Under the pieces are notes generated by a model that searched no databases, was not told the DNA's origin, and saw nothing but the letters and a program-made list of their open reading frames with translations. This document shows, piece by piece, positions 22,695 through 24,490 of a DNA stretch of 42,853 bases. The DNA comes from Planobispora longispora (lineage in GTDB: Bacteria; Actinomycetota; Actinomycetes; Streptosporangiales; Streptosporangiaceae), in assembly GCF_016863135.1 (NCBI RefSeq), contig NZ_BOOH01000059.1:1-42853 (forward strand). The letters are read 5' to 3'. Within the stretch, counting starts at the first letter, position 1. Every line of letters starts with the position of its first letter. The translations under genes were made by a program, and so were the position numbers.

Positions 22695-22855
22695 ACGGGC
22701 CGTACGGCGACGTCGCCGAGGTAAGGCACCTGCCGACAGATATGTCCCGGCACAGCGGAAGTGACTCTTTGCTTAGCCTTTATCACTGATGGTTGCCGGT
22801 GATCGGCGCTAGGCTTTGCTGCGGCCCCGATCCCGACACCGGAAGGTTTCCCGCC

Positions 22856-24490
22856 GTGGACGAAAGTCAGCCGCGTTTTCTCGACGACGTGACCGTGGAA
22901 CTGGTCAAGCACAGCGCCTCGGACACCGACGTGCTCTGGGCGGCCCGGGTGTCCACCGCGGGGGAGCAGTCCCTGGACGAGATCGGCAAGGACCCCGAGC
23001 GGTCCAAGGGGCTGATCAACTACCTGATGCGCGACCGGCACGGCAGCCCGTTCGAGCACAACTCGATGACCTTCTTCGTCAGCGCCCCGATCTTCGTCTT
23101 CCGCGAGTTCCACCGGCACCGGGTGGGGTGGTGTCTGGCGGGTGACTCGGAGATCACTCTCGTGAGCGAGAGAGGTCACGTCCGCAGGCGGACGATCGCC
23201 GAGTTGTATCGGCTCTGGCACCACGGTGTAGAGGACACGATTCCCCGGTCCGGCGGAGGCGTGACGTGGCACGCGAAGGCGGGGAAGTGGAATGCTCAGG
23301 TTAAGTGTGCGGGTCGGATGCACTACCTGGGATCGCATGAGACAAGAGAGTCGGCCGAGAGGGCGGTGGCCGCGTTCAGGGCGGCGAATCCCTCCAAGAG
23401 GTTGAGAAAACTCGACTCAGTCCGCCGCAACCATGTGCGTTGCTATGACGAGACGACTCTGCTGGCGTCACGGGCGAAAATCGTGGACGTCATGGAGTCC
23501 GGTGCCAAACGGCTGATCCGCCTGACCACAGCCGGCGGTAAGTCCCTGAGGTGCTCCGTCGACCATGCGGTGCTCACTCCGGATGGCTGGCGCAAGGCCG
23601 GTGAACTGAGAGCCGGGGACGCTCTCATGGTCGCCGGAACCGCCCCGCGCCCGTCTGAGGCTCTGGTTCCTCCGTCGCTGCGACGCGGCATCGGCGTCTG
23701 GACTTCCATGCAACGGGGGCGGCTCATCAAGGAGACCGACACCTGCTATCTGTGCTCCGGTAGTTTCCAGCGGGAAGACCTTACTCTTGATCATGTCATT
23801 CCGGTGGCTGCCGATCTGCTGAAAGCGCTCGATGAGCGCAACCTGGCACCCGCGTGCCGGCCGTGTCACCGAAAGAGGACGGATTCCGAGCAGGCCCTGG
23901 CGAAACGGGGCGGAAAAGTCTCGGTCGCGAAGCCCGATCCGATCGTCTCGGTCGAAGAGGACGGCGAGGAGATGACCTACGACCTGTCGGTCGAAGGTCC
24001 GTGGCACAACTTCCTCGCCAACGGGATCGTGGTCCACAACTCGTACAACGAGGAAAGTGGGAGATACCGCGAGCTTCAGCCTAATTTCTACATTCCGGGC
24101 GAGGAGCGGAAGCTCGTCCAGGAGGGGCGGCCGGGCAAGTACGTCTTCGTCGAGGGCACCGAGGAGCAGCACAAGACGGTGACCGAGGCGATGGAGGCGG
24201 CCTACCGGCAGTCGTACGCCGCCTACCAGGAGATGCTGGAGGCCGGGATCGCCCGCGAGGTGGCCAGGGCCGTACTGCCGGTCGGGCTGTTCTCGTCGAT
24301 GTACGCCACCTGCAACGCCCGCTCGCTGATGCACTTCCTGTCCCTGCGGACCAAGAACGAGCAGGCGAAGGTGCCGTCGTTCCCGCAGCGGGAGATCGAG
24401 ATGGTGGCCGAGAAGATGGAGGCCGCCTGGGCGGGGCTGATGCCGCTCACCCACGCGGCGTTCGTGGCCAACGGCCGCGTCGCCCCCTGA
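22856..24490 (+). CDS. thyX: Flavin-dependent thymidylate synthase with in-frame intein
   Basis: A 544-residue precursor. The exteins total 241 residues, the normal ThyX length, and make dTMP from dUMP using FAD, NADPH and methylenetetrahydrofolate. The extein shows STAGEQSLDEIGKD, MRDRHGSPFEHNSMTFF, the ThyX motif RHRVGW and, after the intein, SYNEESGRYREL, then FSSMYATCNARSLMHFLSLR. The intein (residues 93-395) interrupts the motif between Trp and Ser, so splicing is needed to rebuild the active site. GTG 22856 is chosen over TTG 22793: GGAAGG lies nine bases upstream and family length fits. Apparently not in an operon with the ABC genes (161-bp gap); a possible -10 TAGGCT is at 22810-22815. 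If no thyA exists, splicing is essential for growth. Confidence 0.93.
   Translation: MDESQPRFLDDVTVELVKHSASDTDVLWAARVSTAGEQSLDEIGKDPERSKGLINYLMRDRHGSPFEHNSMTFFVSAPIFVFREFHRHRVGWCLAGDSEITLVSERGHVRRRTIAELYRLWHHGVEDTIPRSGGGVTWHAKAGKWNAQVKCAGRMHYLGSHETRESAERAVAAFRAANPSKRLRKLDSVRRNHVRCYDETTLLASRAKIVDVMESGAKRLIRLTTAGGKSLRCSVDHAVLTPDGWRKAGELRAGDALMVAGTAPRPSEALVPPSLRRGIGVWTSMQRGRLIKETDTCYLCSGSFQREDLTLDHVIPVAADLLKALDERNLAPACRPCHRKRTDSEQALAKRGGKVSVAKPDPIVSVEEDGEEMTYDLSVEGPWHNFLANGIVVHNSYNEESGRYRELQPNFYIPGEERKLVQEGRPGKYVFVEGTEEQHKTVTEAMEAAYRQSYAAYQEMLEAGIAREVARAVLPVGLFSSMYATCNARSLMHFLSLRTKNEQAKVPSFPQREIEMVAEKMEAAWAGLMPLTHAAFVANGRVAP
23132..24040 (+). mobile_element. Intein with AP2-like and HNH homing domains inside ThyX
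   Basis: A 303-residue in-frame insertion. Block A begins with Cys1 (CLAGDSEITLV); block B has the conserved His145 (LRCSVDHAVLTPDGW); blocks F/G are YDLSVEGPWHNFLANGIVVHN, ending His-Asn, followed by Ser as +1 extein residue. All splicing residues are present. An HNH nuclease with zinc-type cysteines lies at about 205-248 (CYLCSG, LTLDHVIP, CRPCH). Residues 41-88 (GVTWHAKAGKWNAQVKCAG, MHYLGSHETRESAERAV) read as an AP2 DNA-binding domain. The AP2 part lies between blocks A and B, away from the HNH. The insert is clearly less GC-rich than the flanks, so it was acquired. Confidence 0.92.

Follow-up and report, generated by a model that had tools for sequence, protein, structure and literature searches.

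A ThyX intein from Planobispora longispora with AP2-like and HNH domains in separate insertions

Inteins of groups 1 and 2 in ThyX (TdS) have been described from Streptomyces and mycobacteriophages, and the accessible part of that work reports incongruence of the TdS intein tree and transfer (PMC5050341, mBio 2016). A two-site layout is not among the features described in this part, and the term AP2 does not occur in the paper's main text. These inteins occupy the same host protein and the same TdS-a site as the intein analysed here, and the AP2+HNH clade considered below very probably corresponds to "group 2", which is widespread in Streptomyces. In the available portion of another paper, every intein nuclease domain is placed at the C35 site, a restriction called puzzling there; inteins with a nuclease at another position "should exist" according to its authors, who argue that N35, the site related to C35 by symmetry, is sterically barred (PMC6801210).

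As far as the accessible text goes, inteins have been proposed to take accessory DNA-binding domains from genes such as transcription factors, and the DNA recognition region of PI-SceI is given as an insertion into the HINT fold (PMC8966425). In the available part of a further paper, the yeast proteins WHO and HO are intein derivatives that stand alone without exteins and carry an additional DNA-binding domain; WHO is located downstream of the gene it targets, and cutting has been demonstrated in yeast (PMC7282813). In the open-access literature searched, judged by titles and the openings of abstracts, we found no paper on AP2 in inteins.

The thyX locus and its intein

The window, that is, the whole 42,853-nucleotide stretch of P. 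longispora DNA that was analysed, contains a thyX gene with an in-frame intein, organised as follows.

22856..24490, + strand: thyX with in-frame intein (TIGR02170, 1.2e-56), putative GTG start at 22856
22856..23131, + strand: N-extein, ending in RHRVGW (PF02511 positions 1-79)
23132..24040, + strand: intein of 303 amino acids, Cys1 to Asn303 (HINT fold match to the NpuDnaB intein 4o1r, TM 0.87 by target length)
23132..23242, + strand: N-terminal splicing part with block A, residues 1-37 (alignment, AlphaFold2 model)
23252..23386, + strand: predicted AP2 domain, residues 41-85, between helix 22-31 and strand 101-105 (Pfam, phrog_99, AlphaFold2 model)
23432..23647, + strand: splicing part with block B, residues 101-172, His145 codon at 23564-23566 (profiles, alignment)
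23648..23743, + strand: helical lead-in to HNH, residues 173-204 (model, alignment)
23744..23884, + strand: HNH nuclease, residues 205-251 (PF01844, 7.8e-9)
23936..24040, + strand: C-terminal splicing part with blocks F and G, residues 269-303 (TIGR01443, 3.5e-6)
24041..24490, + strand: C-extein, starting SYNEESGRY (splice-junction alignment)

The open reading frame list gives 22793-24490 (+) with a TTG start at 22793; the likely start is the GTG at 22856, which has GGAAGG upstream. The host protein scores 191.6 bits with TIGR02170 (cut-off 87.9) and is thus a ThyX. As the original prediction had it, the intein splits the ThyX motif between RHRVGW and SYNEESGRY and retains all splicing residues: it runs from Cys1 (23132) through His145 to His302-Asn303 (24040) and is followed by a +1 serine. 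Intein-free alleles agree with these ends. In two genomes of the same genus (G507, locus L099; G482, locus L101) the empty site is seamless, ThyX reads unbroken through the RHRxGW/SYNEESGRY motif, and 135/150 and 143/150 flanking bases, respectively, are identical to the window.

The residues that characterise class 1 inteins (Cys1 or Ser1, a block B histidine, a His-Asn end and a +1 Cys, Ser or Thr) are therefore all present, and Cys1, His145, His302 and Asn303 are kept in 68/68 distinct actinobacterial, phage and viral-contig ThyX inteins, a count from which 7 distant rows of 75 were excluded. Intein_splicing (PF14890) matches at 3.8e-15 in Pfam. The AlphaFold2 model of the whole intein, built from 50 aligned sequences (mean pLDDT 87.3, pTM 0.57; 60 and 68 in the linkers flanking AP2), has the HINT fold (Foldseek E 8.9e-10 against 4o1r) and was placed by Foldseek among mini-inteins. 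We take the insert to be a class 1 intein in ThyX which, judging by its intact residues, should splice.

A search for ThyA (PF00303), positive in 9/14 known genomes used as a control, gave nothing in the window's genome, which is 99.96% complete, leaving the window's thyX as the sole thymidylate synthase gene identified. The original prediction that ThyX can be the only dTMP source fits this genome. Its further suggestion that splicing would gate thymidine supply is no more than a corollary of the missing thyA; there is no sign of regulated splicing, and the splicing residues are canonical.

The HNH domain lies between blocks B and F, where it had been predicted (at residues 205-250), and matches PF01844 with 36 bits, above the cut-off of 21.4. 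Its eight key residues (C205, C208, D220, H221, N237, C242, C245 and H246), which we take to be the catalytic and zinc-binding residues, are intact in the window; the last HNH histidine is lost in 4/51 AP2 inteins. LAGLIDADG is absent among the Pfam matches up to E 10 on the window, the nuclease being HNH instead.

The AP2-like domain had been predicted at residues 41-88 between blocks A and B. Profiles and model place it at residues 41-85, where an AP2 domain is weakly recognised in the single sequence and clearly at the family level. Pfam AP2 (residues 43-81) gives E 0.0081 for the whole intein and 0.00042-0.0005 for the segment alone, in both cases under the curated limit (15.9-21 bits against 33.3 for PF00847). 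Across the family, AP2 is matched (E <= 1) by 18/18 intein segments, the window's included, with a best value of 9.6e-8, and no other Pfam family is matched by more than one of the 18. Searched against the PDB, a mixed profile of 41 rows (31 inteins and 10 phage AP2 proteins) matches WRI1, a plant factor, at 1.8e-11, with ERF1 following at 0.02, and window residues 43-84 match positions 217-257 of the phage HNH family phrog_99 at 1.6e-7. The model shows a three-stranded sheet (41-47, 52-59 and 62-69) plus a helix (72-85), and the first four Foldseek matches to this piece alone are plant AP2 domains (probability 0.89-0.99, E at least 0.08).

Foldseek matches to the piece also include dsRBD folds. 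Together with the low single-sequence score, this could mean that the stretch mimics AP2 by its strand-strand-strand-helix shape only, being for example arm-type or dsRBD-like. Of the three matches to an intein-AP2 profile in 392 genomes, two are the window and a Streptomycetaceae ThyX intein (G334), and the third, weak at 2.1e-4, is an ORF (L238) that we read as integrase-like, which would fit such mimicry. A likeness in shape only is very improbable given the 18 concordant segments, the WRI1 and ERF1 matches and the motif GVTWHKKAGKWxAQ...YLGLxE, common to the intein AP2 and phage HNH-AP2 proteins. PF00847 itself gave 1 match (L257) over 296 phylum genomes; because the window's own AP2 fell below the limit, AP2 in other inteins may likewise have escaped it.

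If AP2 is part of the nuclease, as we infer, nuclease parts are not confined to the C35 site. We considered the N35 site for AP2, since the insert comes after residue 37, and rejected it: the loop that corresponds to C35 in the model comprises residues 106-110 and joins strand 101-105 to strand 111-133. AP2 precedes strand 101-105 in the model, following helix 22-31, and its position is therefore read as a third site, neither C35 nor N35.

Relatives with and without AP2

The layout had been thought unusual, and a common occurrence in actinobacterial ThyX inteins would have spoken against that view. In nature this is the case, the layout not being rare: once identical sequences were removed, 51 distinct AP2+HNH ThyX inteins, the window's included, were collected. 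Full-length intein matches occur in 21/394 Streptomycetaceae genomes, in 4/297 genomes of the window's family and in 2/396 of a phylum-wide sample, the last two counts including the window. Scanning named genome contigs turned up 68 loci, 39 of which (L124-L162) hold AP2+HNH inteins; the remainder are mini-inteins, the HNH-only intein L163, cyanobacterial and other distant inteins, and partial matches. Identity to the window intein is 90% in Planobispora siamensis, 87% in Planomonospora parontospora and 50% in Nocardia jiangxiensis, and AP2+HNH ThyX inteins also occur in Streptomyces and Kitasatospora. Three plasmid records have a partial match. In N. jiangxiensis (L162) the insertion lies two codons further downstream, and this locus is identical to one (L239) in a predicted IMG/VR viral contig of 110,945 bases.

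AP2 is absent from 10/10 phage, viral-contig and group 1 ThyX inteins compared. Mycobacteriophage inteins (3 read of 15 full-length records) have HNH and no AP2 at the same site, as do group 1 inteins from Streptosporangiaceae and one Streptomycetaceae genome (G966); one group 1 member (L039) has lost HNH too. A relic of a group 1 HNH intein with one TGA (L038, G432:C7:105028-105480) adjoins a thyX that has no intein; PF02511 matches only once in that genome.

Within the AP2 clade (58 rows, Nocardia included), 51 inteins have both domains, 6 have neither, 1 has HNH only and 0 have AP2 only. The HNH-only member (L163, Actinacidiphila oryziradicis) keeps its nuclease without AP2, so AP2 is not obligatory. 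Deletion edges of three of the six mini-inteins (L164, L166 and L084) are unlike those of the others (L165, L168 and L169), and the most parsimonious history within the clade has three changes of AP2 and two of HNH. Fisher's test of co-loss on the 58 related rows gives 1.7e-7, and a tree-aware comparison, with 2-3 independent pairs, a sign test p of 0.5. Since the rows are related and the independent events few, we keep the co-loss as a pattern and not as a test. The pattern suggests that AP2 and HNH work as one unit.

AP2 might instead serve splicing or regulation, either by stabilising the HINT fold or through DNA binding that switches splicing and ThyX supply. Its position in the N-terminal splicing half, a family-wide conservation equal to that of the splicing parts and a genome without ThyA would suit such a role. 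We regard it as unlikely, as Cys1, His145, His302 and Asn303 are kept in all six mini-inteins and in L163, none of which has AP2, as AP2 is missing from the ten phage, viral-contig and group 1 rows, and as the splice-dead derivative described below retains most of the AP2 signature.

AP2 is not the only domain found in this loop. In a ThyX intein from an Actinomycetota MAG (L177:1179-2408), HTH_38 is matched at 6.9e-9, above the cut-off, by residues 40-69 in the A-B loop, and a further HTH and HNH lie between B and F. A second intein (L179:1501-2724) is built like it, with an HTH in the A-B loop at 3.2e-5, under the cut-off, and Pfam found no domain in the similar insert of a third (L190). In the intein tree, where AP2 was labelled by insert length, L177 and L190 carry that label wrongly, their 48-residue A-B inserts being without AP2; the count of 51 leaves out L177, and L190 was never counted. 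An HNH intein is also present in a protein of phage Rctr197k (L092:2177-3976) annotated only as a putative HNH endonuclease; we presume its flanks to be ThyX-like from their appearance.

Small proteins carry the nearest AP2 domains in viral contigs (identity of up to 62% across 34 residues), and a loose HNH pattern was present in 20/22 inspected ORFs, 22 of the 44 viral-contig AP2 loci having been inspected. The closest of these (L192), the only one scanned with Pfam, has HNH_3 plus AP2. Going by the shared motif and the phrog_99 match, the intein AP2 resembles that of phage free-standing HNH-AP2 nucleases, a likeness new here, and the simplest inference is that it was acquired from this phage pool.

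Selection, mobility and a stand-alone derivative

Over 243 pairs of more than 80% identity, dN/dS is 0.099 for AP2, 0.116 for HNH, 0.114 for the N-terminal and 0.133 for the C-terminal splicing part, and 0.19-0.21 for the stretches either side of HNH. Between the window and its four nearest relatives, dN/dS of AP2 is 0.13-0.24, above that of the N-terminal splicing part (0.07-0.12).

Distribution is patchy. The intein is present in 2/4 sampled genomes of the genus, and the nearest host protein to the window's ThyX is intein-free (G507, 97%). The intein tree conflicts with the host ThyX tree: two sister ThyX proteins (L125 and L036; SH-aLRT 98, a starred value from a quick tree) carry an AP2 intein and a group 1 intein, respectively. 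Such a conflict shows intein gain, loss or exchange and is compatible with either direction. Intein GC3 is below extein GC3 in 37/39 cases. Unusual codons directly after the intein (GAAAGTGGGAGATAC) were at one point read as a homing tract; almost identical codons occur in L101, an allele of the same genus that has no intein, and co-conversion was therefore dropped. No co-conversion tract was seen beside the window intein.

These data bear on the possibility that homing has ceased and that AP2 and HNH are decaying remnants in a fixed, vertically inherited passenger. Mini-inteins and losses of the HNH histidine do exist, and the lower intein GC3 and lack of a conversion tract would also be expected of a passenger. 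Against this, dN/dS is about 0.10 for AP2 and 0.12 for HNH, the window keeps all eight key residues of HNH, two of four genomes of the genus have the intein and two do not, and intein and host trees conflict. We consider a passenger quite unlikely, and a mobile intein remains the preferred reading.

A stand-alone AP2+HNH intein derivative was found in a Streptomycetaceae genome (G1007; L260:4311-5351, - strand). This ORF, which has no exteins, spans 346 codons; counted from a GTG that follows AGGAGG, the number is 339. Beside it, on the opposite strand, lies an intein-free thyX, the only PF02511 match in the genome, which we read as another ThyX subtype; the ORF sits between genes that we read as dapA-like and dapB-like.

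The splicing residues of the derivative are lost (C1R, H145S, H302K and N303G). Of the near-invariant columns (the same in at least 48 of 51 inteins), it keeps 46/49 in AP2, lead-in and HNH (14/16, 13/14 and 19/19) and 39/68 in the splicing parts (28/45 and 11/23; Fisher p 6e-6 with columns treated as independent). Its nuclease-to-splicing identity ratio of 1.19 exceeds that of all 51 inteins (mean 0.92, SD 0.053, maximum 1.02). pN/pS is 0.50 for AP2 and 0.51 for the splicing parts, and lower, at 0.37, for HNH. Pfam reports HNH and, at E 0.1, no AP2; phrog_99 matches the AP2 stretch at 3.7e-6. A search of 184 genomes of its genus, a set overlapping the 394 Streptomycetaceae genomes of the intein search, returned the ORF itself and four ThyX inteins with no second copy, and a search of plasmids gave no match. 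The ORF thus has the traits of WHO and HO: no exteins, splicing residues lost, nuclease kept.

A proposed two-part homing endonuclease and its wider meaning

Directly observed anatomy, conservation, patchy presence, conflict between intein and host trees and patterns of decay lead us to regard the element as, with high probability, a mobile intein with a homing endonuclease divided between two separate insertions, AP2 and HNH. The HINT fold would self-splice after translation, restoring ThyX, and the free intein would act as a homing endonuclease. HNH, placed where intein nucleases usually lie, ahead of the final 35 residues, would cut intein-free thyX at the conserved RHRxGW/SYNEESGRY codons; AP2, in its separate insertion after residue 37, would bind part of the same target and add specificity or affinity. 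An older HNH intein that lacked AP2 probably acquired the domain from an HNH-AP2 nuclease of the phage type.

The window intein resembles PI-SceI in combining HINT, a nuclease and an accessory DNA-binding domain. The nuclease is LAGLIDADG in PI-SceI and HNH here, and the accessory domain of the window intein has the AP2 fold. We understand the DNA recognition region of PI-SceI to be located after block B, whereas AP2 in the window lies between A and B. Free-standing phage HNH_3-AP2 proteins of the phrog_99 type share with it an AP2 motif (GVSWHKKAGKWxAQI...YLGLF) joined to HNH. The phage protein is one continuous chain with AP2 after HNH_3 (L192), whereas in the window intein AP2 comes first, the HNH is of the PF01844 type and splicing parts lie between the two. 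The G1007 ORF, known from one bacterial sequence, resembles WHO in placement, lying beside a thyX as WHO lies near its target gene, but carries HNH and AP2 where WHO and HO have LAGLIDADG and a zinc finger.

A broader reading, on which we are evenly divided, is that inteins have, in the helix-to-strand loop between A and B, a second place where DNA-binding domains can dock repeatedly, distinct from C35 and N35 and taking AP2 in actinomycetes or HTH in L177 and L179. With the HNH at C35 the docked domain would form one two-part homing endonuclease, which at least once would have escaped from its intein and persisted next to thyX on its own, as a bacterial equivalent of WHO and HO.

The two-site architecture of these ThyX inteins, with its putative endonuclease, is real, widespread and apparently undescribed. 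New here are the absence of AP2 from the ten phage, viral-contig and group 1 ThyX inteins compared, the dN/dS of about 0.10 for AP2, the finding that 0/51 AP2 inteins lack HNH, and the HTH in the same A-B loop; new also is the stand-alone, splice-dead derivative beside thyX, with its better-kept nuclease-region columns. AP2-less phage and group 1 inteins, AP2+HNH inteins, an AP2-less HNH intein (L163), mini-inteins and a splice-dead derivative with both domains form a natural series. This series can test the single-site C35 puzzle, as posed in the accessible part of PMC6801210, and the acquisition of accessory domains, as proposed in that of PMC8966425. With no other thymidylate synthase gene identified beside thyX, standard laboratory strains that require thymidine should allow splicing and the function of the nuclease to be read out.
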